Below, piece after piece: positions 1 to 26,675 of a stretch of DNA of 64,000 nt (positions are counted from its first letter, which is position 1; every line of letters starts with the position of its first letter). Made by a program: the position numbers and the translations under genes. The DNA is from a virus, in the IMG/VR virus record IMGVR_UViG_3300017917_003732, positions 22,996 through 86,995 of that record, one strand, 5' to 3'. The notes beneath the pieces were generated by a model. It was not told where the DNA came from and made no database searches. It saw nothing but the letters and a program-made list of their open reading frames with translations.

Positions 1-316
1 CTGTGGACTTCGTAATCGGTGGGACTGAGCTAGGAGCAAGCATGGTTCTAGGTGTAAGGTCCTTGACTTTGACCCATTCTCCAGATTGTGTCAAAAGACG
101 ATGATCTTCAGTACACGTGAGAATTCCATCGGTAACGATGACATGACATAGGGTCTTGACGCCACCGTAATAAAGGTGAGTCGTCGGCTGCTCTGCCTCC
201 CCGTCATATAGCGTGCAAGCATGCTCAACGAAACCCTCCTCACTAGGGAAAGAGCCTAAGCTCTGTAGGGTTTTATACTGACCACCAGAAAATACGATTG
301 TATCCGGGTGAACGCA
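1..316 (-). other. N-terminal part of an intein in PolA
   Basis: The in-frame segment that begins at Cys codon 316-314 does not look like polymerase. It opens with CVHPDTIVFSGG, which matches intein splicing block A: nucleophilic Cys1, then D5 T6. Block B follows at residues 64-75 (GILTCTEDHRLL), with the expected T69-x-x-H72, and then GEWVKVKDLTPRTM, typical of the strand after block B in Hint domains. About 105 residues are inside the window. The endonuclease region, if any, and C-terminal blocks F and G lie outside. Established knowledge: inteins often sit in active-site motifs of replication proteins. Inference: the insertion follows K674, equivalent to Lys758 of E. coli Pol I, so unspliced polymerase should be inactive. 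Confidence 0.93.
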
Positions 317-2338
317 CTTTCCCATCTGTCTCTGTTGTTTGGTGATCTCAGGACCAAAAAATGCCTTCGCTGTAATCGTGTGCAAGTCACCAGTGCCTTC
401 GTTGAATTCCTTGATCCAGACGGGTTCCCGGGAAAGGTTGGTGACGATGCGGAGCTCCTCTCCCGCAAAGTCAATCTTCACCATTGTGTACCCCTCACGA
501 GCAACGAATGCCCTTCGAAGGGCCGTAGCTACCTTAGGCTTTTTTGCATCATACGTCGCCGGGATCCCATGAATTGGAATCCCCCCGTACCCATGCTTTG
601 GTTTTCCAGCAGGGGCCGTAAATCTGCCCGTTGGTGCCCCCGTTTGCTTGAACTGGTACCGGAGTTCGTGGTTATGATCGCAGTTGTTCAGCATCCCCTC
701 AAGATAAGTACCAATGACCTTTTCGACCTGACGATACTTGACGATTACCAAAAGAATTGGATTGATGTTGGGATGCTCTTCAACCAACTTCTCCAGTGTA
801 TCCGCGTCAGTCTTGTATTGATTACTCTTCTCGTTCTTCTCAGGCTTAGGTTCGATGTTTAGAAAAGCCGGATTCCCAAAGAGGAACTCCGAAAGCTGCT
901 GCGTCGAGTTCGGATCGAAATCAGGCCATCCTAAGCTAGCGGCGAGGGACACAATCTGGTTCCGATATTCAGTAGCTTCATTACGAGCTTCAGTGAACAG
1001 GGACCGCACATACTCCTGATCAATCTTAATTCGATTTCGTTCCATCCACCGAAGAACCTGTGCCACTTGCTTTTCCAAACGGTAGGTATTGGAATACTTC
1101 CTGTCCTGAGCAAGCGTCTTTAGTAAGGGACTTTCACAATGCAGGTAGGTACAAATGGCATCCGAGCAAGCATAACGTCTAGCTTCCTCAGGGTACAGAC
1201 TAGCAAAGTCAATTTCCCGTCCCTTAAGAAACAGATCTTCCAACTCAATCATCTTATAGGGGATAGGAGAACCCTTCGGGTCCTCCTTTACGATCTCATG
1301 TGAAGGATTACTTGGATCTTTGAGGATATATCCCAAAATCGGCTTACCCTCTTTATCTAGTACGACCAAGTTAGACTCACTTTTGGCCTTCAATCCAAGG
1401 TCCTTATCTCCAGTATAGTGACAGTAATACAAGAGCAAAGAATCCTCAAATGACTCCGGATGCCAGTAGTCTATGCCCGTAACTGGGTATAGGAATTCCT
1501 GATCGAACTTCGCGTGATGGAAGTAAATCTTTACTCGAGGTGGGGTAGCGAAACAAGGTCCCCCCAAGGGATCTACCTTGAATGATTCCGGGGTTAAAAC
1601 CGGCTGAGCAGCCAAACACAACCGCTTGATTGCCTTACCTGCCCCTACTACATCAACATTGTCCTTTGTTTCCTTGCGATGCCGAACCGGGACATAGTAA
1701 CCAGTATGGCCGTCATACGAGAGACAATAGCCAACAATCTTGTGTTTGGTTTGAGGGATCAAAGCCGGAGAAGGTCCTTCCCAATATACCTCAAAAGGGT
1801 AATCCAGCTCTTCTGGATTGCACATATAAATTCGGTTATCCAGCCCTTCGGTTTCCAAGTCCAAGGCACACCGGCCCGACAAGAGTGCCTTATCCACGAT
1901 ATCCTCTAGTTGCTCCACACTGGTAACAATCACAAATTCGTGGTAGTGCATCCACGCTCGAACAATATCGGCCGCATCGGCCTCTTGTCGAACGCCGCTT
2001 GCTGCCAGAATGCCCTCTGGGGTACCAGGTTGCTCTTCGTCCTCCTCGCTGACAGTACTTAGACTCGGAGGGGGTTCAGAAATAGGAGGGAGCGGAAGGT
2101 CCTCCGTCATGCCGTCCTCTAGTTCTAACTGACTAGAGTCCTCCGACGTGAAACTCCCCACTTGGTTCAAAAGTTCTGCCAACCCATCATCTTCTTCGAC
2201 TATAGGAGGAGGTACCTGTTCTGTGACGGAAACTTTCTCAAGCACAAGAGACAGGCCCAAAGGCACAATTTCGTTGCCACGAAGCCACTCGGAAATTCCA
2301 AGGACTTCACCAACCGAAAAAAATTTATTCATTGGCAT
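1..2338 (-). CDS. polA: Family A DNA polymerase (PolA), intein-interrupted, 3' end outside window
   Basis: This is the phage replicative DNA polymerase. Read from ATG 2338, the frame stays open to the left edge, so the C-terminus is missing. Residues 40-118 form an acidic, proline-rich extension. A DnaQ-like 3'-5' exonuclease follows: Exo I DLETEG with D160 and E162, Exo II HHAKFD with D279, Exo III YACSD with D393. There is no 5'-3' exonuclease domain. The polymerase part shows the TGAPTGRF loop near 566-573, motif A DFAGEELRI with D623 and E627, GDLHTITA, and the start of motif B (QQRQMGK; R670, K674). After K674 the frame becomes an intein (positions 316 to 1). The start overlaps the upstream gene by 14 bases and GTGGTGAC lies just before it; ATG 2332 is an alternative. 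The family call is firm. The residue that sets dideoxynucleotide sensitivity cannot be read because it lies beyond the intein. Confidence 0.95.
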   Translation of the reverse strand, partial: MPMNKFFSVGEVLGISEWLRGNEIVPLGLSLVLEKVSVTEQVPPPIVEEDDGLAELLNQVGSFTSEDSSQLELEDGMTEDLPLPPISEPPPSLSTVSEEDEEQPGTPEGILAASGVRQEADAADIVRAWMHYHEFVIVTSVEQLEDIVDKALLSGRCALDLETEGLDNRIYMCNPEELDYPFEVYWEGPSPALIPQTKHKIVGYCLSYDGHTGYYVPVRHRKETKDNVDVVGAGKAIKRLCLAAQPVLTPESFKVDPLGGPCFATPPRVKIYFHHAKFDQEFLYPVTGIDYWHPESFEDSLLLYYCHYTGDKDLGLKAKSESNLVVLDKEGKPILGYILKDPSNPSHEIVKEDPKGSPIPYKMIELEDLFLKGREIDFASLYPEEARRYACSDAICTYLHCESPLLKTLAQDRKYSNTYRLEKQVAQVLRWMERNRIKIDQEYVRSLFTEARNEATEYRNQIVSLAASLGWPDFDPNSTQQLSEFLFGNPAFLNIEPKPEKNEKSNQYKTDADTLEKLVEEHPNINPILLVIVKYRQVEKVIGTYLEGMLNNCDHNHELRYQFKQTGAPTGRFTAPAGKPKHGYGGIPIHGIPATYDAKKPKVATALRRAFVAREGYTMVKIDFAGEELRIVTNLSREPVWIKEFNEGTGDLHTITAKAFFGPEITKQQRQMGKCVHPDTIVFSGGQYKTLQSLGSFPSEEGFVEHACTLYDGEAEQPTTHLYYGGVKTLCHVIVTDGILTCTEDHRLLTQSGEWVKVKDLTPRTMLAPSSVPPITKST

Positions 2339-2753
2339 GAGTCACCACTAAAACATACACCCCTTGTCTCCATAATCGGACGAGCTCAGCCGCAAGTTGT
2401 CGGGGCTCTGCCTCCTCAATGAATGCAGGCTCGAAGCACCAAGGCATCTTCGGGCTTGTTGGAGCACAAGACTTTTTATCGTAAAATGGGCACACCAGAA
2501 GACGATAACAAAGAGGGTTGGTTAGCTTGCGTATAGCGCCTTCTGGGGGTATCCCTAGTACCTTAACAAGTGGACTAGTCCAGCCTCGAAGAGCGTGATC
2601 CATCAAGTCCTGAGAAACTACCGTGAGTAAGGTAGTAATATGCTCTCGTTGCAGCGGTCTCCACTCTTCTTCCCAAACTTCCCCATACTGATAAATGAGG
2701 TACAGGTCTAAGTCTCCAAGTTCCATCGTTTTTAATGTCAGTCCCCTAGCCAC
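2325..2753 (-). CDS. Unknown protein in the replication operon
   Basis: A 142-residue protein lies between the primase zinc-domain gene and polA. The start is probably GTG 2753: GGAGAGAAGG lies six bases upstream, and the start overlaps the end of the previous gene by 8 bases. ATG 2726 would give 133 residues with a poorer ribosome binding site. The middle carries four cysteines (around LCYRLLVCP, KKSC and MPWCF), which could bind a metal, but the spacing matches no family I recognise. A C-terminal helix-strand segment (LAAELVRLWRQGVYVLVVTH) follows. Its position inside a tight replication cluster suggests an accessory replication role. I do not recognise the family. Confidence 0.75.
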   Translation of the reverse strand: MARGLTLKTMELGDLDLYLIYQYGEVWEEEWRPLQREHITTLLTVVSQDLMDHALRGWTSPLVKVLGIPPEGAIRKLTNPLCYRLLVCPFYDKKSCAPTSPKMPWCFEPAFIEEAEPRQLAAELVRLWRQGVYVLVVTHANE

Positions 2754-3375
2754 CTCGAGCCTTCTCTCCGATCTTATCCAAGATCAATTGCGCATTCTTA
2801 GCAGCCAATTCAATATCAATAAGCTTGTTTTTTACTTGATAATGAAGGTTATCGAGAAGATGGCCCACGATCAAGAATCCCCTCAACTGAAAGTACGCCT
2901 TATTAGCCCTTAGTCTTTTCTCACAGACCTGCAACTTATCGAGGACCTCTTGTTCCTCCTCCGTAGGCCCCGTCTGGATAGTGCCCCGGGTCATATCGGG
3001 GGCTTCCGGAGTTGCGATATTGAAAGCTTTTTCTAGGCCAAAAAGAACAGCTGTGAACTTCAGATCTGGGTCCCCTTGGAACTCCTTCCAGAGTCCGAAG
3101 ATGTCCCACCGCTTGCGGCACACCCAGCAATAAACCCCCGAAGGACTATTTCCTATGGAAGGATAAATTCGTGCAGAAGGGGTCTTATCGCCATGAAAAG
3201 GACAGCAGATTTGCTCTTCATGATCCCCAGAGGACTTCAGGTCAGTTCCGAAGTAACGAAGAACGTCATGCGCTGAGATCTTAGACTTAAGCGTCTCTTT
3301 CCGTTGATTGAGCCACAAAAGAAAGGCAGAATTCTGCTGGCCTTCCTTCATAGCCGTACGAACGGACTCTCGCAT
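2746..3375 (-). CDS. CHC2-type primase zinc-binding domain protein, no TOPRIM domain
   Basis: This 209-residue protein matches the zinc-binding domain of DnaG-type primases, which recognises template initiation sites. The motif is CCPFHGDKTPSARI at 57-70 followed by YCWVC at 82-86; likely ligands are C57 or C58, H61, C83 and C86. A helical preface (ISAHDVLRYFG) matches the start of the DnaG zinc domain. After about residue 110 only helical, charged sequence follows, and no TOPRIM catalytic motifs (EGxxD, DxD) are visible. The protein is therefore far shorter than a full primase of 350-600 residues. The start is ATG 3375, two bases after the helicase stop, with AGGTG upstream. The catalytic subunit may be encoded outside the window. 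Confidence 0.88.
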   Translation of the reverse strand: MRESVRTAMKEGQQNSAFLLWLNQRKETLKSKISAHDVLRYFGTDLKSSGDHEEQICCPFHGDKTPSARIYPSIGNSPSGVYCWVCRKRWDIFGLWKEFQGDPDLKFTAVLFGLEKAFNIATPEAPDMTRGTIQTGPTEEEQEVLDKLQVCEKRLRANKAYFQLRGFLIVGHLLDNLHYQVKNKLIDIELAAKNAQLILDKIGEKARGG

Positions 3376-3377
3376 AG

Positions 3378-4853
3378 TTACACCTGGATTTGAAACATCA
3401 TGTTCTCGATTACTCGGCTATCGTCCATAGAAAGGCCTTTATCGTTAGCCCCATGGAACGTTTCATGATTCAGAATACGCTGGGTAGGCCAGTGCACTTG
3501 TGCCAAAAATGGAGGAAAATGAGGCCCATCACGACGCTTTAGGCAGTCGAACAAAGTCGTTCCCGCCTTTCGATGGTCATCGTTCAGGTAGCTAGTTGTA
3601 ACAACGTCGGCTGACCTCTCGCACTCATTTGAGTAAGAAAGAGCACGAAGTTTATACCTCCCTTCGTTCTTATCTGCATAGTCTTTTCCATCACGATTTA
3701 TCTGAAACAGGACCAAGACTGGAATCTTTTCCCCATGATTGAAGTGAAGAGCGAGCTTTTTTGCGTCTCTAAGAACTGAGTTTAGCTCAATGACGTAATC
3801 CTTACTCCTCTTACGACGCCTAGGTTCGACAAGGCCTCCGTGGTCAATAACCAAGAGGTGCACCTCCTCTTGCTGATGCCGAAGCTCTGCCTGCATCTTG
3901 ATGTCATCAGAGGTGATGTCTTCATCCGGACCCCATACCTCAAAAGACCCATAGTCTTCGTCAGTGCAAAAGTCCTTGATCACTACCTGATAAAATGCCT
4001 CTTCTTCAGGAGTCAGAGTGCCTGCACAAACTTTGTCGTAGTCAAGAGGCTTATAGCCCATAGCCATGAACTTCGGGTTCTCCGAATGCATGACATAGAT
4101 CTTTTTCCGCACTTGCTCGTAAGGCATCTCCAGAGTCACGTAGAAGACATTCGAGCGATACCTTGTGATTAGGTTATAGCTCCAGTTTAAGGCAAAGGTT
4201 GTTTTGAGCTCACCTACGAATGCTGCATGCACCCAGAGCTCACCCCTTTTTATGCCACGAACCACCTTATCTATGTTATTTAGCCCACAGAACTTGCCCC
4301 AGGCTAATGCCTTATTCGTCTTTGCCTCAACATACTCATCCCACACTTCTTGCCCATCTTCACGAATGTTCCCTTGAATTCGTGAGTTATGGTCTTGCAC
4401 AAGAAGGCTATGAGCTGATCGGTTGAAGTGAAGAATCCCATCGCGGAGACCTTGTTTCTTCTCCTCATCGATGACTAGGCCCTTAGTGATTATTTCCTGG
4501 GCCTCTTTCAGAAGGGCAATAGCCTTATAGCGATTCTGTTCTTCAACCGTGTTCGAGATCAGGTAAGCGTAGTTTGATCGAATGTACGCGGGAACCCCAT
4601 CGAAGTCTTTCAGCCTCTCAATTGCTTCGTAGTCCTTACGAGCCTCGAAGTAATCCATCACCGTCTGGCGAGAAGGAAGCTCAAGCCGTTGATGAAAGTA
4701 GGTTTTCGCAAAGGTAAAGATCCGATTATCCGCTGGCTGAGTCCATTCAATCTTCGATGCCAAAAGCTTCTGGAAGTTGAAGATCAGATTCTCTTGACTA
4801 ATCCCCCCATTGATGTCAATGACACTCCGAAGAAGACCCTTCATGTCACTCAC
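3378..4853 (-). CDS. dnaB-like: DnaB-family replicative helicase
   Basis: This 491-residue protein is the likely replication-fork helicase. An N-terminal helical region of about 180 residues precedes a RecA-type ATPase core. The Walker A position reads AFVGELKTTFALN (A211-N223), aligning with the DnaB pattern GRPxMGKTTFALN; K217 and T218 are kept, but the glycine before the lysine is leucine (L216). YVTLEMP (238-244) matches the usual SLEM motif, LLVIDHG (333-339) is Walker B, FQINR (383-387) is motif H3, and ECERSADVV (410-418) is the C-terminal motif near the arginine finger. It overlaps the loader-like gene by 8 bases, which suggests coupled translation. The family call is strong; the unusual P-loop leaves the catalytic details open. 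Confidence 0.92.
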   Translation of the reverse strand: MSDMKGLLRSVIDINGGISQENLIFNFQKLLASKIEWTQPADNRIFTFAKTYFHQRLELPSRQTVMDYFEARKDYEAIERLKDFDGVPAYIRSNYAYLISNTVEEQNRYKAIALLKEAQEIITKGLVIDEEKKQGLRDGILHFNRSAHSLLVQDHNSRIQGNIREDGQEVWDEYVEAKTNKALAWGKFCGLNNIDKVVRGIKRGELWVHAAFVGELKTTFALNWSYNLITRYRSNVFYVTLEMPYEQVRKKIYVMHSENPKFMAMGYKPLDYDKVCAGTLTPEEEAFYQVVIKDFCTDEDYGSFEVWGPDEDITSDDIKMQAELRHQQEEVHLLVIDHGGLVEPRRRKRSKDYVIELNSVLRDAKKLALHFNHGEKIPVLVLFQINRDGKDYADKNEGRYKLRALSYSNECERSADVVTTSYLNDDHRKAGTTLFDCLKRRDGPHFPPFLAQVHWPTQRILNHETFHGANDKGLSMDDSRVIENMMFQIQV

Positions 4854-5774: not shown

Positions 5775-7508
5775 TCAACCCTTCGCGTCTTCACGCAAAG
5801 AATGCAGCAAATCCTTGATGTCACTCTCGCCACGGTCAAATTTCAAGGCTCCAACCGCTGCCTCGCCGATGATCTGATCGATTAACCCCTTTTTCTTGCG
5901 AAGTTTCTGAATAACCTTGTGGTCGATAGTCTCACCCTTTTTGCCCTTCTCTCCGGGGCGCTTGGCAATTAAGTGAACAGCCAACACATTTTGATGTGGA
6001 CTACCGATACGGATCATTCTCCCCAAAAGTTGTATGTAATTTCCCCAGCTCCAAGGGGTATCAAAGAAAATCATGGCCGAGGCAGCCTGAAGATTGATTG
6101 CCTCGCTTCCCGCATCGGTGATAAAGATGACCGATACCTTCGAGCCGAGGTCCTGGAACTGATCCTGGGCTTTCTTTCGGTCGGCAGCCTTGTTGATCTT
6201 GCCAGTGATGGCAACACTCTTTATTCCCTCTTTTGCGAGGATTTTTTGCAAACGAACGACTAGCTTTTCGAACCGAGTGTAAACAATTACTTTCTCATCG
6301 TCGAACTCCTCTGTGAGGAGTTCAACCAAAGCCGACTCCTTCGAACTACGGCCCTCGAAGGCATGATCCCCGATTTCGTCACCTTCCTTGAACTTGAGAA
6401 GACCCATCGAATCACAGACTTCTTGCGCATAAATTAACCCAGTCATCTGCCGAGTCTCCTCATAATTTTTCAGCTCCCCGTCCCCCATTTCCAGGAGCCC
6501 CGCAAGAGCCTCAGCATACTTCCGATCCTCGGCTGGAGTAAGCTCACAGGTGACCTCTCTAGTAGTTAGAGCCGGAAGCTCTGTGGACACCAAGTGCTTG
6601 GGGCGCCCATAAAAAAATGGATCGATTGTCCTACGAAAATGATCAAGGTTACGGTACCCCACCACAATCGGGATTTTGCCGCCCCCTTTCACCCTCTGAA
6701 GCTCTGTGATACAGTAGGTGTCTAAGAAGGCAGTCTTGGTTGAGAAAGTCTCGGGTCGGATTACCTTGTAGATCCCAAAACCTTCCATGAGGTTGTTCTT
6801 CAGCAATGTAGCGGTAAGCCCCCAAACCCTCTTGGATCGTTGGGAGAGAAACTTACATGTTTGATGGGTCTTGGTACTCGGATTCTTGAAGGCACTGGCT
6901 TCGTCAAAAATCACAGCAAGACTAGCAAACTTCAACGTCAACCCGTCAAGAAATCCACGTCCCGTGACCGGCTGGGTACCAGGTTTAGCGCCAGGGGCAG
7001 GTGCCTCTTTTTTAATTCCATAATCCCAGTCTCGCACCATTCCATGGTAATTGACGATTAGAACACTTGGGCCCGTTTGCTTTTCCCATCGTGAGTACGC
7101 CGCCATTCTTTGCTGAGGAGACCCGGAGGCAATGAACCATTTGATCCCTATCGTGAATTTGTCGATTTCAGAAGCCCACTGACCCATCGCCGACTTCGGG
7201 CAAACCACCATCGCCTTGAGTTCCGAGTCTCTCTCCCAAAGGTAACAAAGTGCTCCAATGGATTGTATTGTCTTACCTAGTCCCGTCCCATCCCCAAGAA
7301 CCATACGATTCACTACCAGGAGATGGTAAATGCCCTGAGCTTGGTAGTACCGTAGCTTAAACGGTTGAAGGGTTCCGTCAAACCCTAGGATGTTATCTCG
7401 GAACATCTTAGTAGGGTTCAACGAAACCGTCTTACTCTCTCGTACTCTTTTAAGCTGTTCGTAGATTTGTTGAAATCGATCAGAAGTGGGATTTTTGGCC
7501 TCTGGCAT
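5775..7508 (-). CDS. SNF2-family DNA translocase/ATPase
   Basis: A superfamily 2 ATPase of SNF2 type, about 577 residues, expected to translocate on double-stranded DNA and remodel protein-DNA complexes at replication or repair sites. Counting from an upstream GTG at 7523, motif I is GDGTGLGKT (77-85), motif II is IFDEAS (205-210; DEAS rather than DEAH), motif III is LTATLLKN (236-243), and the C-terminal lobe carries YTRF and a motif VI LLGRMIRIGSPHQN. The conserved Asn-rich KNPSTK follows motif II, as in SNF2 enzymes. I chose ATG 7508; GTG 7523 adds five residues and neither has a clear ribosome binding site. It begins the run of replication genes after the secreted protein. Confidence 0.92.
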   Translation of the reverse strand: MPEAKNPTSDRFQQIYEQLKRVRESKTVSLNPTKMFRDNILGFDGTLQPFKLRYYQAQGIYHLLVVNRMVLGDGTGLGKTIQSIGALCYLWERDSELKAMVVCPKSAMGQWASEIDKFTIGIKWFIASGSPQQRMAAYSRWEKQTGPSVLIVNYHGMVRDWDYGIKKEAPAPGAKPGTQPVTGRGFLDGLTLKFASLAVIFDEASAFKNPSTKTHQTCKFLSQRSKRVWGLTATLLKNNLMEGFGIYKVIRPETFSTKTAFLDTYCITELQRVKGGGKIPIVVGYRNLDHFRRTIDPFFYGRPKHLVSTELPALTTREVTCELTPAEDRKYAEALAGLLEMGDGELKNYEETRQMTGLIYAQEVCDSMGLLKFKEGDEIGDHAFEGRSSKESALVELLTEEFDDEKVIVYTRFEKLVVRLQKILAKEGIKSVAITGKINKAADRKKAQDQFQDLGSKVSVIFITDAGSEAINLQAASAMIFFDTPWSWGNYIQLLGRMIRIGSPHQNVLAVHLIAKRPGEKGKKGETIDHKVIQKLRKKKGLIDQIIGEAAVGALKFDRGESDIKDLLHSLREDAKG

Positions 7509-7543
7509 GGTGACAGGATACACCAGTCATCTGGTATAGCCCG

Positions 7544-19500: not shown

Positions 19501-22500
19501 GAAGCCAACATATCCTGAGGTAAAGTTCCAATCAAGTAGTCTCTCTGCCACTCGGGAATTCCAACGTTGTACGTTGCCGTGGCATTAACAGTCGTCTGAC
19601 TCGGATACAGGCGAGAGATGTTTGGGAAAGTGAAGACTCTTTTACGAAGGGTATACTTACCCGAGATATCGGTGAAAACAGCGTCAAGGCACATGTTGTA
19701 GCCCCCCGCCATCCTTGGGTCACGTCCGATAAACTTCTGAGCGGATAGGGCTCCGTTCTCTTCCCACTGATGACCGTAAGACCATACTCCAATGTGTAGG
19801 AATACGTTTCGATAGCCATCCGTGGCGAAGTACGGATTTGGGCAACCATTAGTCCCATGGCGAGTGTAGACAACATTGTGCCAGAGGACCTGTTGAAGAG
19901 TTGACTCAGTGCTTTGAATCGAAAGATTTCGAATCCCTGAATTATATGGACCAAAACTCTGACGGAACGCACGAACCTTGACGTTCTGCCCTTCCACTCG
20001 CTCTCGGTCCAAAAATCCATACAGATTGTCACCCCATGAGAGCGCAACCGAATAGACTTCGCTTGTGCCTCCTTTATGCCCATATCGGGAAGCCCCAACA
20101 ACAACACCGCGATAACCGAGATCGGCTTCCAGTCTTGCCCCTTCTACCAGGTCGTTCCAGGTAATGCCATACTGACCATACTTCGTATCTGCAAATGCAC
20201 CCTTTGGAGGGATCGCATCCCAAAGATTGGAGAAGGTCAGACTCGAGTCACCAACGATATCACTGGGGGGAGCGTTAGTTACTCGCCAAACAGTGCCTCC
20301 GTAGGTAGACCCAGAGGAAATGTAGATGTCTGTCCCAGCTACATGGGTCCCACTGGAAAACTCCGCCGCTCGTGCCCAATTTAGTTCACTTGCCACCCAT
20401 ATTCCAGACAACCATCCCCACCCTGTAACGAGAATTCTATCACCAGATTTGATGACAACACCGTCAATGGTGATTCCCAAACCAACACGCCCGTTAGGGA
20501 TCTCAACCCCAGGGTTCGTGGAAACACATCGGGCTGTGACTCTATGAAAAATGGTGTTTCCGAAAAGACCTCGATCCAGGACCTCTTGCTTAGGGCGATC
20601 ACCAACCGATAGGTCATACTCATCCGCAAACGTGGAGTAGGATGAACTGACAATTATCTTTCCCTCGGGGCTCACGCGGAACCCAGGAGACTTCATGCAG
20701 GCCTTCTCACTAGGAGGTTCGAATGAATATACAGGAGGATTCTTAACAAGAACCCAATTGACATCTTGACCGGTGTAACCCCCGTTCACTGCTTGATCCA
20801 AGGTAACTACGTGTTCCGAATTGACGGCACTAACCGTTCGGAATTCCCCGAAGTCGGGGAAGTAGATCGTGTCATTTGGGACAACTGTGTTTCGATAGCT
20901 ACGCCCATTTGGATCTTGATTCCACGAAACATTTGAGAATAGGAAAGTGCCATCCATTAGGTATTGAGTTCCGCCAGAGTAACTCAAGTACCCCGTATCC
21001 GACTTGATAACGTCCACCGTGGGGCTAACTATTACCCAATCAGATCCGTTCCACGTAACGTCGGGAATGAACGAGGGAACATAGGTAGTGATAGGCAATG
21101 AGTAGTTTCGGAGTGAGACATCATCCCAATTATGACTCAGACTCCAAGCCGAATTTGGATAAACATCAAGAGGATCTCTACCCCCAAGAGACCGACGAAT
21201 CAACTCAACATCATTTGACCTGCGAAGCTCGGTCACCGATGTCTCCTTTGACTCATATGCACTTGTAACTGAAGGGGCTTGAACTGCCCAAGACCGGCGT
21301 TCCGCCGAACCTGTCTGACGCAGTGCAAAGTAAGAAGCGATAACGAAATTCGTCGAGAGGTGAACTCTCACAGGATAAGGACTTTGAGCCGGGATACCGC
21401 TCCCATCATCCAAATAGTTACTGTCACGTCCGTTATCGAAGTTTAGAATATGAGGACGGCTGGCCGACGCCCTAGTATCGAAATTCTGATAGACCGCAAT
21501 CACCCTGTCATTAGGTCCAGCAGAAAGCCTAACGAAGTCTGGCTCCCGTTCTTGTAGGTAATACGTGGTTGCAGTCAAGCTTTCATCAGGACCTGAAACG
21601 AGGGTACTAGAACATATAGTAGAACCTTCAATTGCAGTACAGAAGATTCGACTCATTGGGATGATAGCATACCTAAGATTAGACTGACTGGTTATGACCT
21701 CCGCGTCAGAACCTTCGACACCTTCCCATTGAATGTTCAAAGTTGACGTACTCTTTGCACGAACGATCCCTGTTCTTCCATTCGTCCAAACGAAGGTACT
21801 GTTAGTCTGCCTCAACAAAAGAAAGCGGTCGCCAACCTCGACACCCACAGTGTCCCAAGAAGGGTAAGCCACATCAGAGAAGTTTCCACTGCCATCGAAT
21901 GCACCAGTAGTACCCGTAAGGACTGCATGACCCCTTCGGGTAGTTGCCGTTACAAACTTATCCTTATTGACCCAAACACAATCAGTGGAACTATATATTG
22001 CCGCCGCCTTAGTGTCGCCAGACTGTACCACTACGGTTCCACCACCCAGTGAATATATGGATGTATCGAAGATACTAGTAGAAGAGGAAGCCAGATTCTC
22101 TTTGCAGAAGCAAGTTGTACAGACTACTGGATCTGACGGCCACTCACTCGGTGCAACCGAGATACTTGGGTGCATAGAATAAGCATAGTAACCCGATGCA
22201 TACGCTACAGGGGGGTAGAGCAGAGAGTAACGCTTATGCTGTTCCGTTCTCGGAGAATCGGAGTAGCGCAGAGCCGCATAATAACTTCGAGGCCCTAGGA
22301 TAGTGGAATCAGTATATTCCTCAGTCCAACAGAATACATAAGTATCAGTGAACGGGTCATGATCCACCCTTGGGTAATGCCCTGGGGTGTAGTACCCTTC
22401 AGCATTGACATTACTCACAGACTCAAGAGTAAAGAACTTTTCAGAAGAGTCCTTCACATTGATCCCAAGGCCCGGAAGCACCTTAGTTCCGTCTGTTCGC

Positions 22501-24449
22501 ATCTCGTTGAACCAGATCGAATTCGTTGTAGACTCTGCAACGAAAATTCCCCAAACTCGACGCGACTTGTTCCAAACAACATCATATCCTTCGATCTTGA
22601 AGCTCTCTGGGAGCTCGAATATCGTAGGCAATGGGTAAGAACTCATGAGGTTAGTGATGGTAGGGGATGTCACCGAGGCATCATAAGTCCCCCAAACTGT
22701 GTTAGGTCCGATCCTGATTTGACTCTCATTCTGATACAGAATCGTCCCCGAGCCCTCTCCCTCTAGTGTTACGCCAGGGGGAATAAGAAGGTTTCGAGCA
22801 TAACTATCACCAGGAAGGCGATAAACAGAGCGACGGAGATGGACCGTAGAGTATTGACCAGAAAAGGCGGCTTCATTAAGGGCGGCTTGAATGGCATTAG
22901 GTGCCCTCCGCAACCCAGAAGGCTCACCGTAGTATGAATCCCATGCAGGATTGAAGTCCCCACCAGGATGGGTATGCGTTCCAACAACCAAACGAGTCTT
23001 ATCCTCAATTCGAGTTTCCTCCGGAGGAGTAGAATCATTCGCTGTCTGGATCATCCGGATCTTGCCGTCACCTCGAATCCGAAATCCTCTGAAAGCATCC
23101 CGACCAATGTCAAATTGGTCATCACTAAAGACGCCGAAATCAGTCTTCCAAGTGGTATCTTCCCAGAGGCTACCCTCACGACCAGACTCATTGGCACTAA
23201 GGGCCCTTACTGCGAAGTCGTTACCTTCGCCCGTTGCCCCAATTCGGATAAAGTCTTTCCTCCACTTCCCGTATAGGGTATGGCCCTGTTCAAGGTAAAC
23301 CCTAGCTGGGTTCTTATAGGTCGCTACAGTGCTCCGGCTAGTATATATATGGGTTGAGGCTCCCTCAGTCATGAGAGAATCCACAGCCCAGTAGACGGCC
23401 CAAAGCTGAAGGCGACCCGTCGTCGCATTGGTCCCACCGTTACCGCCAGCAGGCTTTACCTCTGACCCCGCTGCTGGAGGGGTAGAAAACCGAAAAACCC
23501 CAGCCTTGTAGTCTATCGTCATTCGCTGGTCCGCGTCCGGAACAGAGGCATCAATTCTAGGATTCTTTGGAAGAGGTGCAGTAAAGTCCGGTCCACTGCC
23601 ATTCGGCAACGAGCGATATAGGATGGGACGGTAACCAACAAGATCCAAGGAACTCCCAGGTCCTGCCGGGGGCTGGAAGATTGCATCCGCACGGTCCACA
23701 GCCTCCCCCGCAGAGAAGGATGGAGGGACCAGATTACGGATACGCTTTGCATTCACTTGGTCAAGGGAGGGACTTTGGATTGAGTGGTCCATATCAGGCC
23801 ACGTCGCGAGAAACGTCTGCTCCCTCCCGAGTGGCCCTGACCCTGGTACTGCCCAAAGCTGAACCGCCGTAGCGCGAACAACAGCATATGTATATTGAGT
23901 GGTGTCAACTTGCAGTTGATTACTCGGACTAGAGCTTGGGTTCACCACAGACGATAGGGTAACTGTCCAAGTTGGAAGTGAACCACCAGACGAGGATACG
24001 TTACTTACGACACCGACCGCATTTGCGTTATCGTCTGGGGATTCCCCTCGTGATTTGATAATCAGAAGGTCCCCGGCCTGAACCCCAGTGAAGTTTGCTT
24101 CTGGACTGTCATCCTTCCAAGTAAGAACCCCAGAAGCATATCCTGCTACCCCAGTCGTAAGGAACGTTGGACCATACCAACGGACTGACTCAGAACTAAG
24201 GTTGCTGGGTTGAGTCCTAGAAAGAACATAAGTGGCAGGGTTTTGTGGGGGTCGGACAGCCCAAACGTCACCACCGTAAACAGTGGGGCCGGTATAGAAC
24301 CTCTCATCATTTATCGAGCCCGCGTTGGACTCATCGCCTACGGTCAGCGCTTTGCCACCCGCAAAAAAGTCAGCCTTTCGCAGCTGCTCCAACTCTCGGC
24401 GAGTCAGGTTCGAATAAGTAGCCCCGGTCGCAATGTGGTTAGTAGCCAT
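16587..24449 (-). CDS. Giant beta-propeller/beta-helix appendage protein (2620 aa)
   Basis: At 2620 residues this is the largest gene in the window. After an N-terminal attachment region, residues about 106-170 and 850-913 carry beta modules (GVQAGDLLIIKSRG; GVEVGDRFLLLRQTN). Residues about 515-570 read like the first turns of a pectate-lyase-type beta-helix (AIQAALNEA, VHLRRSVYRLPG, IPPGVTLEGEG). At least eight scattered strands follow a W-[ND]-G-x-[DGQ]-[WF]-x-V pattern, such as VTWNGSDWVIV, ITWNGSGFTVTY, VGWNGQDFFVCAL and VVWSSKLNKWQVAFS, as in beta-propeller blades. A DDEIVLVHGVSGG...IYRGAQNTVAAEH module lies near 17400-17600. It probably binds a receptor or surface polymer. No catalytic site is recognised. 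Confidence 0.85.
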   Translation of the reverse strand: MATNHIATGATYSNLTRRELEQLRKADFFAGGKALTVGDESNAGSINDERFYTGPTVYGGDVWAVRPPQNPATYVLSRTQPSNLSSESVRWYGPTFLTTGVAGYASGVLTWKDDSPEANFTGVQAGDLLIIKSRGESPDDNANAVGVVSNVSSSGGSLPTWTVTLSSVVNPSSSPSNQLQVDTTQYTYAVVRATAVQLWAVPGSGPLGREQTFLATWPDMDHSIQSPSLDQVNAKRIRNLVPPSFSAGEAVDRADAIFQPPAGPGSSLDLVGYRPILYRSLPNGSGPDFTAPLPKNPRIDASVPDADQRMTIDYKAGVFRFSTPPAAGSEVKPAGGNGGTNATTGRLQLWAVYWAVDSLMTEGASTHIYTSRSTVATYKNPARVYLEQGHTLYGKWRKDFIRIGATGEGNDFAVRALSANESGREGSLWEDTTWKTDFGVFSDDQFDIGRDAFRGFRIRGDGKIRMIQTANDSTPPEETRIEDKTRLVVGTHTHPGGDFNPAWDSYYGEPSGLRRAPNAIQAALNEAAFSGQYSTVHLRRSVYRLPGDSYARNLLIPPGVTLEGEGSGTILYQNESQIRIGPNTVWGTYDASVTSPTITNLMSSYPLPTIFELPESFKIEGYDVVWNKSRRVWGIFVAESTTNSIWFNEMRTDGTKVLPGLGINVKDSSEKFFTLESVSNVNAEGYYTPGHYPRVDHDPFTDTYVFCWTEEYTDSTILGPRSYYAALRYSDSPRTEQHKRYSLLYPPVAYASGYYAYSMHPSISVAPSEWPSDPVVCTTCFCKENLASSSTSIFDTSIYSLGGGTVVVQSGDTKAAAIYSSTDCVWVNKDKFVTATTRRGHAVLTGTTGAFDGSGNFSDVAYPSWDTVGVEVGDRFLLLRQTNSTFVWTNGRTGIVRAKSTSTLNIQWEGVEGSDAEVITSQSNLRYAIIPMSRIFCTAIEGSTICSSTLVSGPDESLTATTYYLQEREPDFVRLSAGPNDRVIAVYQNFDTRASASRPHILNFDNGRDSNYLDDGSGIPAQSPYPVRVHLSTNFVIASYFALRQTGSAERRSWAVQAPSVTSAYESKETSVTELRRSNDVELIRRSLGGRDPLDVYPNSAWSLSHNWDDVSLRNYSLPITTYVPSFIPDVTWNGSDWVIVSPTVDVIKSDTGYLSYSGGTQYLMDGTFLFSNVSWNQDPNGRSYRNTVVPNDTIYFPDFGEFRTVSAVNSEHVVTLDQAVNGGYTGQDVNWVLVKNPPVYSFEPPSEKACMKSPGFRVSPEGKIIVSSSYSTFADEYDLSVGDRPKQEVLDRGLFGNTIFHRVTARCVSTNPGVEIPNGRVGLGITIDGVVIKSGDRILVTGWGWLSGIWVASELNWARAAEFSSGTHVAGTDIYISSGSTYGGTVWRVTNAPPSDIVGDSSLTFSNLWDAIPPKGAFADTKYGQYGITWNDLVEGARLEADLGYRGVVVGASRYGHKGGTSEVYSVALSWGDNLYGFLDRERVEGQNVKVRAFRQSFGPYNSGIRNLSIQSTESTLQQVLWHNVVYTRHGTNGCPNPYFATDGYRNVFLHIGVWSYGHQWEENGALSAQKFIGRDPRMAGGYNMCLDAVFTDISGKYTLRKRVFTFPNISRLYPSQTTVNATATYNVGIPEWQRDYLIGTLPQDMLASAYATNAKRKPTYGARAIWTGKTFLGLLIVPRGLLLFDLGTDEEDLILDEAVAGGAVVRDSTVYQMFEVPKIKAFAYIGNGGGNPPGPNKNVPFYKNACNADTRSLEIVDMVEVDACYAEGVLAVVWLAGLNKTVQAFTDENQMNSELGRPILGVTLFRRGQGGTLSFDSGRSNSAFNATSYIIDKWPGETARNGSIKDPKITWNGSGFTVTYIYKFQDSGISTDYDLKFFTFPKEGLRSNFQVVAAHGTYSAESSEAASDSQAIGWINNDGKLCLTLTRETYVVKPGDLILVTKTSASADVTKESAEALSLQYNSATSSNLAGVYPVVAYDSSNGQVQLGVSPLRPGVNIGDLVYGMILSGDGVTPLAKDARMSDGPTSGTVGTGMIVKSVYGIPSGVGTEVSDLWASIYVESQDKYVLFYNRGAYLMARAISSDGQATAEFNFGLGLSSDYAHASVGWNGQDFFVCALNNVGSSAYYWLLSKDLGLQSCGHLCYANEHIGNGTNDVPGPGYSSPNTMYTPTYKFQACSVVWSSKLNKWQVAFSIGWWNEDTDRSRYNSLSFGPSFDISSYTNVVLSRSVSGAVLQPGIRALVGVYANIYSDYCDTTLTYEPPVRYPYTVLGNGPTLDLYETSVEITAPMLATDSTMSVSSATYLPDAEARKYYLKIDDEIVLVHGVSGGATTLSIYRGAQNTVAAEHLIGTTAYLLPEFSGNLGYLGGSYLASGSSGPYVGLANEGDVLEMPAAEGSDRVVAEVAKSAYTLIWPGAGLVSFGGTDYSDVDYVPLNGAIHPLTFTPVIGWGYLEDIRVLRLDKRYLFHVMGSSDTIIVTSTDASEVYSTPDDWNDYLTNSRVFALQREDIVLYTFGDPYPTVEVVDADGVSIENVEFQSGTTDVCEYYPRMGRPFWKTGSPCVGKLGNTLASAQMGQKPHVAPVTATPLGKVELVRFSNVRSKTRGRYGYDLITAAKKGA

Positions 24450-24506
24450 GCAGTCTTAGTCCTCGCGATAGGCCGTACCGATAAAAAGTTCACGGAAGAA
24501 TATGAA

Positions 24507-26675
24507 TCAGGTTGGCGGCAACCAATCAACCGCTTGCACACTAAGGGTTTCTCCTGTTCCATTTTTGATCAGGGTGACCCTGACGAACAGAATGAACTTA
24601 CCCTCTGAATTCGGTTGCGTCATTGCGCTACCCGTGCTGTAAGTAACAGTTGTAACGCCACCAGCCTCTACTACCCCAACCTTGCAACCACGGAAGTTCT
24701 GGGTTTTGTCGTTATCCGGAACGCCATCAGACCTTCCAAGGTCAAGCCAACCAGTTACACCAGGAACCTTAATTTGAACAATCGCACCACCCGCATGGTC
24801 AGTAAGTTCATTAGGGTCAATAGCAATTGTCGCAGTAAAAGCCGCCGCTGTTAATCCTGTAAGCTGGATCTTTCCGGCGTTCCTCGCGATCCCTGTATTG
24901 AAAGCTCGAACATACCGTCGTTTAGTTCCAGAGGGGTCTCCGGCATAAGTAGCAGAATAATCCCTGCTTGCATCCTGCACCGGACGAATAGAGGAGGCAT
25001 TGAAGTTCACTGTTGGGTACACCAATCGGCCCGAATACAGCTGTAGATCAGCAGAGCTAACAGCATAAGTTGAGCCAAAGACATCTGCACCTTGAGGAAT
25101 GATTGGTGCGGAAGCGAGCGAGGCAGTATAAGAACTGACGTACCGATAGTTTTCCTTGACAAAGGAATCTTTAGTCTCAGTGGTTAGGGTCGCCTCAGCA
25201 TAAGCGGGATCAACCAAGTACCGCTCGGTGCTCGTAGCGTCCACGTAGTTCGAAAAAGAACCCCTCCAACGAACAACGACCTGAGCGTAAGGGTAAACAG
25301 GCTTTGGCAGGGGGCTAACGACTGTGAGTGCCGTTTGGGTTGCGTTGCTAAAAAGAGCTACTGCCGAAGTATCTGGAGGATTAACCAGAGTAAAGGGTGA
25401 ACCTCCAGAGTTATTAACAACATTGGAGCCATCAAACAATGGGAAAGACTGAGTTGCCCCATTGAATCCAGACATTACAGCTTGAACAATCGGAAGCGCC
25501 GATTCAAAACCAGCTGGAACAGAGGCAGAAGCCACCGTATTCGTCAAAAAGGAGTTACTAAAAACGTTTCCCGCCGTCGAAGATACATTCACTCTAAACG
25601 TAGTCGAAGTGTAGTATTGAATTCCGGAGAGGTAATTCGTAACTGTATCCCCTGCTGGAGCCGTAGTAATCGTCAGTCCAGTAGGACCAGACCCACTCAG
25701 AGCATCGGCAAAAACGTTAGTCCTGACCACGTTTTCGTATGCCGCCGAGTCAGCAGGTACTGCGGAATAACACTTTGAGGCAATGAGGTTTCCATTGGTC
25801 AGGTTAATAGGCTCAATTGCCGAAAGGGTCGTGGCGTGCGTTTCCTTCCAATGAACAAAGAGGTAGCTCCCCGTGTTTCCAGAGGAAATAGAAACAGGGA
25901 AGTTATACTTACCAAGTTGATAGGCATAAAAATTCGAACTAAATGCCGTGTATTGCCCTCCAGGATAACTATTCAAGTAGGGCAAACGAGCCGTCAAATT
26001 GACGTAATCCAGGGAGGTGTTGGATGCTACATAATCAGGTTGACCTGTTGCCCTTGTAGCCTCAACAAAGCTAGCACTTGGAATGCCAGCAGGAGCCGAG
26101 GCAGCGCTTCCAAGCCAGAGAGCATAAAGAAGCGTGGTATCCGGGACACCAAAACTACCACTCGTGCTCTTATATACCGCCAAAACACCACGATCTGCTG
26201 GGAAAACCATACCCCCAACCGTCTGATTTCCAACGCTTCCCGCCGGGGTCAAGTACTTCGTCACAATGGCAGCGGTACCAGACTTGAATCCACCGTGAAT
26301 CGCCGTTCCCGAGCCTCCAACAGTCAAAGAATTTGACCAATTAGTGAGCCCAGAATTTGGGATCCCGCCAACATCGTACCCAATTCGATCCGGCTTCACC
26401 GGAAGCAGGTCTGACAGGGCGGTGAGCGCATCCATTACGCTTTCACCATCGTACGGACCCCCAGCAGACGAAAGAAGGGGTTGACCTGTTATGGGGTTAA
26501 GCTCTGGCAGGCCAACCGCCCACGACATGTGAGCGTCAACAGGGTCTTGGATGTGTGTTTCCAAATCTCCAGAACCCCCACCGATGGGAAAAGAAAGCGC
26601 CGAAGACGGGACCATGCCAGCCGCAAGTCTTCCAGGGCCAGAATTGACTACAGTCGGGGACTTGTTGGACGGCAT
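24507..26675 (-). CDS. Appendage/tail structural protein (722 aa)
   Basis: A 722-residue protein starting at ATG 26675 with GGAGGAG seven bases upstream. Its N-terminus has a low-complexity leader and a conserved-looking patch (LETHIQDPVDAHMSWAVG). A long beta-rich body is dominated by Ser, Thr, Ala, Gly and Val, and the end (GWLDLGRSDGVPDNDKTQNF, then KFILFVRVTLIKNGTGETL) looks like a compact beta-sandwich. It is flanked by the 881- and 2620-residue proteins and separated by 3 and 57 bases. In the 57-base gap after its stop the frame stays open for 15 more codons; this may be chance. The likely role is a tail-fibre or baseplate-attached particle component; the family is not recognised. Confidence 0.8.
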   Translation of the reverse strand: MPSNKSPTVVNSGPGRLAAGMVPSSALSFPIGGGSGDLETHIQDPVDAHMSWAVGLPELNPITGQPLLSSAGGPYDGESVMDALTALSDLLPVKPDRIGYDVGGIPNSGLTNWSNSLTVGGSGTAIHGGFKSGTAAIVTKYLTPAGSVGNQTVGGMVFPADRGVLAVYKSTSGSFGVPDTTLLYALWLGSAASAPAGIPSASFVEATRATGQPDYVASNTSLDYVNLTARLPYLNSYPGGQYTAFSSNFYAYQLGKYNFPVSISSGNTGSYLFVHWKETHATTLSAIEPINLTNGNLIASKCYSAVPADSAAYENVVRTNVFADALSGSGPTGLTITTAPAGDTVTNYLSGIQYYTSTTFRVNVSSTAGNVFSNSFLTNTVASASVPAGFESALPIVQAVMSGFNGATQSFPLFDGSNVVNNSGGSPFTLVNPPDTSAVALFSNATQTALTVVSPLPKPVYPYAQVVVRWRGSFSNYVDATSTERYLVDPAYAEATLTTETKDSFVKENYRYVSSYTASLASAPIIPQGADVFGSTYAVSSADLQLYSGRLVYPTVNFNASSIRPVQDASRDYSATYAGDPSGTKRRYVRAFNTGIARNAGKIQLTGLTAAAFTATIAIDPNELTDHAGGAIVQIKVPGVTGWLDLGRSDGVPDNDKTQNFRGCKVGVVEAGGVTTVTYSTGSAMTQPNSEGKFILFVRVTLIKNGTGETLSVQAVDWLPPT

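Follow-up and report, generated by a model that had tools for sequence, protein, structure and literature searches.

How can a phage obtain a working DNA polymerase from a gene whose reading frame runs without a stop from catalytic motif B into the conserved blocks of an intein? The gene, polA, lies at the left end of the window, i.e. the 64,000-nucleotide stretch analysed here, which corresponds to positions 22996–86995 of an 86,995-base viral record (record coordinate = window position + 22995).

The polA frame encodes a polymerase precursor with two inteins

The polA frame begins with the start codon at window position 2338 on the minus strand, passes position 1 without a stop and continues leftwards in the record as a single open frame (Table 1). 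Its product consists of extein 1 (residues 1–674), intein a (675–937, 263 aa), extein 2 (938–1029, 92 aa), intein b (1030–1438, 409 aa) and extein 3 (1439–1697). Joined exactly, the three exteins give a complete PolA of 1025 aa. The N-extein contains the 3′–5′ exonuclease motif ALDLETEGLD, the palm/thumb region and motif A KIDFAGEELRIV, and beyond intein a motif B resumes as SANFSLVYGG, with Phe at the Phe762 position, and motif C (VHDE) is reached. Thus, the continuation of the C-extein that the initial annotation had asked for is present, and after extein joining the protein carries motifs A, B and C together with the 3′–5′ exonuclease domain of a family A DNA polymerase, all catalytic motifs being intact. 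The Pfam DNA_pol_A model matched the whole protein in three stretches, together covering model positions 2–379.

Table 1. Positions of polA, its inteins and further genes discussed in the text (window coordinates unless marked otherwise)
Feature	Position	Strand	Evidence or remark
polA, whole frame, 1697 codons	record 20240-25333	-	including stop
PolA N-extein, residues 1-674 (up to motif B QQRQMGK)	317..2338	-	Pfam DNA_pol_A 442-676, E = 1.7e-59
Intein a, first 105 residues: block A CVHPDTIVF, block B TCTEDHRLL	1..316	-	remainder outside the window
Intein a, whole	record 22523-23311	-	C-terminal end FISHN
Intein b, whole	record 21020-22246	-	between PIQG and SGAD; outside the window
CHC2 zinc-finger (DnaG-like) protein	2746..3375	-	Pfam Zn_ribbon_DnaG 2e-6
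DnaB-like helicase, intein-free	3378..4853	-	Pfam DnaB_C 4e-18
SNF2-type helicase, intein-free	5775..7523	-	Pfam SNF2-rel_dom 4e-28
Intein-bearing AAA ATPase and SNF2 helicase loci of L007	L007:11629-14598 and L007:3-2522		
DnaB helicase of L090 with intein	L090:2-1852		SYANE/CLVEGT
PolA of L067 with third-site intein	ORF starting L067:4935		

The first insert (intein a) starts with a Cys codon that reaches up to window position 316, directly after the Lys674 codon (317–319), and its junctions read QQRQMGK/CVHPDT...NGFISHN/SANFSLVYGGG (slashes mark splice sites). Besides the blocks A and B already described, block F and the terminal His-Asn were found in the record to the left of the window, and all splice residues of a class 1 intein are kept: the Cys1 nucleophile, TxxH of block B (TEDH), the Cys, Asp and His of block F, and HN/S with Ser at +1. 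The Pfam Intein_splicing model matched the whole precursor with E = 4e-7 and intein a alone with 1e-3, both below the curated cut-off. As a single-sequence query, intein a found no match in IMG/VR and none among solved structures; alignment queries did match, and other phages have homologues at the identical codon (E = 5e-16 to 2e-12). An intron was rejected as the frame stays open and protein blocks of an intein are present; a split gene was also considered and rejected.

The second insert (intein b), lying outside the window, was absent from the initial annotation. Its junctions are LNYPIQG/CLQSSS...DGVITKN/SGADVMK, and its splice residues are likewise kept (C1, CDxRH, the His of block F, and KN/S), so that Cys1, the terminal Asn and the +1 Ser of class 1 inteins are all there. 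Two positions deviate from the usual pattern: in block B (CDTRH) Asp replaces Thr while His is kept, and the penultimate residue is Lys instead of His. However, CDxxH is invariant in nine aligned members of the subgroup, and the site-b inteins of L006, L007, L090, L096–L099 and L102 combine a CDxxH block B with a Lys-Asn end, whereas a second subgroup (L009/L050/L066) has the usual residues in both places. Since most relatives share both deviations, including ones with intact endonuclease motifs, this suggests that CDxRH with penultimate Lys is a working variant. The L066 intein b (204 aa) is devoid of any endonuclease domain and represents a natural mini-intein at this site.

Both inteins interrupt helices of the active site

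Structure models were made from the intein-free relative L005 (polymerase) and from L090 (site-a intein) in place of the window-phage proteins. The L005 polymerase (pLDDT 77) superimposed on the Klenow fragment with TM 0.87 and E = 7e-33. The alignment of L005 to Taq polymerase (QQGKMANFSLVYG paired with RRAAKTINFGVLYG, E = 8e-39) places Lys674 at the motif B lysine and GKMANFSLVYG over AKTINFGVLYG of Taq; hence intein a follows the motif B lysine, as had been proposed, at the very coordinates given earlier. This residue corresponds to Lys663 of Taq and Lys758 of E. coli. In the L005 model it is residue 631, within helix 624–638 (O helix). Site b splits the QG/TAAD motif (NYPIQGSGAD of L005 aligned to NMPVQGTAAD of Taq) and lies directly after residue 723, within helix 706–743. 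The nearest solved folds of the L090 site-a intein model were the TliVMA and PI-SceI inteins; the confidence of this model is low (pLDDT 55), so these matches were taken as support only.

The unspliced protein could hardly form either active-site helix, and the precursor is therefore expected to be inactive. This part of the earlier proposal stands, as deduced from the position of the site in the O helix of the modelled L005, while the idea that splicing gates DNA synthesis was not supported as it had been put: an inactive precursor can be expected for most inteins placed in active sites and is no evidence of regulation.

Empty and occupied sites in related polymerases

The insertions are missing, in frame, from homologous genes, and the exteins align end to end and join exactly. 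Both sites are empty in L005 (183 kb; GK/MANF, PIQG/SGAD), L007 (512 kb) has intein b only with site a empty, and L090 (147 kb) has both inteins with intact endonuclease motifs. Among 79 viral loci from the polymerase alignment search, in-frame inserts of more than 100 aa occupy site a of L066 and L085 and site b of L034 (from the L007 phage), L050, L051, L066 and L085. Intein scans added L121, with intein a alone, and L096–L100 and L102, which carry intein b in distant family A polymerases. Altogether, site-a inteins occur elsewhere in LR745208/L009, L066, L090 and L121, and site-b inteins in L006, L007, L009, L050, L051, L066, L090, L096–L100, L102 and the MAG contig L115; the deposited huge-phage genome LR745208 has both. 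Given the block A and B residues, the homologues at the same codon and the empty site in relatives, chance resemblance is excluded and the insert at site a is an intein, as originally recognized. For bacterial and archaeal genomes a profile of nine b inteins proved too diverse, and a four-row alignment was used instead, which gave one match: a Pol I with intein b on a contig assigned by binning to a gammaproteobacterium. A third site is occupied in L067, another of the 79 loci (MAA/CFAKGSL...LAHN/CDFGGVELRI), just before the catalytic Asp of motif A.

In the intein tree, the site-a and site-b groups form separate clades (support 100/100). As the inteins cluster by site and not by phage, a and b represent distinct elements. 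The extein tree shows intein carriers scattered among intein-free polymerases. Between L090 and L009, intein a agrees by 44% over its splicing part and by 41% over its endonuclease part but the extein by only 34%, and the inteins b of L006 and L007 share 39–42% compared with 23% for the exteins. Inteins of distant phages are thus more alike than their host exteins, which points to horizontal spread.

The +1 residue after intein a is Ser or Thr in 5/5 carriers, while in genes without this intein it is Ser or Thr in 6/67 and Ser in 1/67 (some rows that are nearly duplicates and one evident false match, L084, are part of these counts), the nearest relatives having Met. Fisher's test with four carriers gave p = 5e-6 when Ser was counted and 2e-4 when Ser, Thr and Cys were counted together; the rows are related, so that these values overstate their independence. 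The simplest reading is that the arrival of intein a converts the flanking +1 codon too, so that a host codon would change together with the intein. Most intein-free genes already have Ser or Thr in the +1 position of site b.

The endonuclease parts have decayed

The homing endonuclease expected to the left of the window was found only in degenerate form, in both inteins, so the presence of an active endonuclease was not borne out. Neither LAGLIDADG endonuclease of the window phage retains its catalytic aspartates, whereas relatives have intact motifs. In intein a about 100 residues are missing, including the first LAGLIDADG motif, and the second reads GLFDIHG where others have DTDG (the L090 intein a has GLYLGDG and GLLDTDG); in intein b, GYYLGNG replaces the GDG and GIWDGNKY the SDG of other members. 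Loss of the aspartates of LAGLIDADG motifs normally abolishes cleavage. Both endonucleases having decayed, the window-phage inteins should therefore no longer home unaided.

In relative-rate tests of intein b, changes unique to the window phage were counted against those unique to L007 with L090 as outgroup. The endonuclease part showed 81 versus 12 unique changes (p = 8e-13), the splicing part 12 versus 9 (p = 0.51) and the extein 60 versus 43 (p = 0.09); the corresponding branch lengths were 2.03 versus 0.36 for the endonuclease and 0.47 versus 0.36 for the splicing part. Thus, the splicing part of intein b is constrained and the endonuclease part is not. Replacing the outgroup by L006 weakened the contrast but left its direction unchanged (endonuclease 41 versus 20, splicing 6 versus 16). 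The splicing part of intein a had 23 versus 9 unique changes with one outgroup (p = 0.013) and 21 versus 14 with the other (p = 0.24). As both parts of intein a have evolved faster, the rate contrast is clean for intein b only, and splicing of intein a may be weakened.

How the inteins probably came to stay in polA

Considering these results, we concluded with good confidence that polA carries two once-mobile inteins, now immobilized, which are retained since the polymerase must splice. The gene would encode a 1697-aa precursor of a replicative family A DNA polymerase, interrupted by two cis-splicing inteins of class 1, each of which would be excised by an N–S acyl shift at Cys1, transesterification to Ser+1, Asn cyclization and extein ligation. 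Splicing would restore the O helix at Lys758/Ser759 and the Q-motif helix at PIQG/SGAD, yielding the 1025-aa polymerase. Both inteins would formerly have spread between viral polA genes by LAGLIDADG homing and their endonucleases would have decayed since in the window phage, leaving the inteins immobile. They probably persist because only exact deletion removes them and splicing failure leaves no polymerase. It is very probable that the phage relies on protein splicing to obtain the single DNA polymerase detected: searches of four records (the window phage and three relatives) yielded no second family A polymerase and none of families B or C. For the essentiality of polA this search is only suggestive, because the window-phage record is a fragment and a second polymerase could lie beyond its ends. 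Further points against immobilized but splicing inteins are the block B Asp and penultimate Lys of intein b, though common to most of its family, the drift of the splicing part in intein a, and the weaker contrast for intein b with outgroup L006.

It is possible that splicing regulates replication. One or both inteins could have been co-opted as a switch of DNA synthesis responding to a redox, temperature or DNA cue, for which the apparent loss of mobility with retention of the splicing residues, the location of both sites in active-site helices of the modelled L005, and the stress-responsive inteins known from literature cited in PMC7156551 can be quoted. Such conditional splicing appears unlikely, as any intein in an essential gene is expected to keep splicing, no regulatory feature was identified and none of the findings calls for a regulatory role; moreover, a switch would be dispensable for the clade because close relatives have no intein (L005) or only one (L007). 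Domestication of the two immobilized inteins as a maturation step of the only polymerase, with the timing or conditions of splicing under selection, seems to us quite unlikely. If polA were not productively spliced and degenerating, with replication served by another polymerase, decay of both endonuclease parts and the somewhat accelerated splicing part of intein a would be explained, but the extein evolves no faster than in L007 (69 versus 87, p = 0.15) or L005 (88 versus 83, p = 0.7), and the intact 1697-codon frame and catalytic motifs, besides the failure to find another polymerase of family A, B or C, make this very improbable. An assembly artefact fusing unrelated sequences might be suspected in a single metagenomic record; its likelihood is negligible, given that double inteins occupy the same two codons in the independently assembled L090, L066 and LR745208 and that the junctions are exact to the residue.

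Within one polymerase family, L005 (no intein), L007 (b only), L090 (a and b, endonuclease motifs intact) and the window phage (a and b with degenerate endonucleases) represent stages of the homing cycle. With these genes, viral family A polymerases join the hosts of inteins, with at least two recurrent insertion codons in catalytic helices and, in one relative, a third beside motif A. Gene callers and marker-gene surveys based on viral polA may misread intein-bearing genes as oversized or broken.

Comparison with known inteins

Phage proteins with two inteins are already known, and so are inteins that follow a catalytic lysine. VMA-b and one MCM intein are inserted behind the conserved lysine of Walker A in their host proteins (PMC10643990), much as intein a follows the motif B lysine, and the VMA inteins (PI-SceI, TliVMA) and archaeal MCM-a likewise combine a Hint splicing domain with a LAGLIDADG endonuclease; they reside in other host proteins, however, and the window-phage copies, by contrast, have lost the endonuclease motifs. 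In Haloferax, MCM-a and MCM-d occupy independent sites, and MCM-d converts the +1 Pro to Ser (PMC10643990). Thus, this MCM resembles the window-phage PolA in having two inteins in one replication protein, and Pro to Ser parallels the Met/Ile/Gly to Ser difference seen here, but it is an archaeal helicase with active endonucleases, whereas our case is a phage polymerase with both endonucleases degenerate. The terminase of cyanophage Mic1 is likewise an essential phage protein with two inteins, of which only one has an endonuclease domain, and a role of the stress-responsive type was proposed for the two (PMC7156551); it differs in being a terminase and not a polymerase. The DNA polymerase I gene of SPO1 contains a group I intron between Asn675 and Leu676 (as numbered in PMC2814812), again a mobile element that splices itself out at a conserved position of a phage PolA, but spliced as RNA and located elsewhere. 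No intein in PolA or DNA polymerase I was described in the literature searched (subscription papers and intein databases lay outside this search), and we do not claim priority.

Inteins in other genes of the relatives

In the window phage, polA lies downstream of two neighbouring genes of replication, those of the CHC2 protein and the DnaB helicase, with the SNF2 helicase further up, all in the same direction. L007 has an intein in its SNF2 helicase and another in the Walker B region of an AAA ATPase (SP/C...THN/CIMWIDEAEKS), both of which are missing from the window-phage copies. In L090, an intein interrupts the DnaB helicase (Table 1), and additional Intein_splicing matches are present in the same record.
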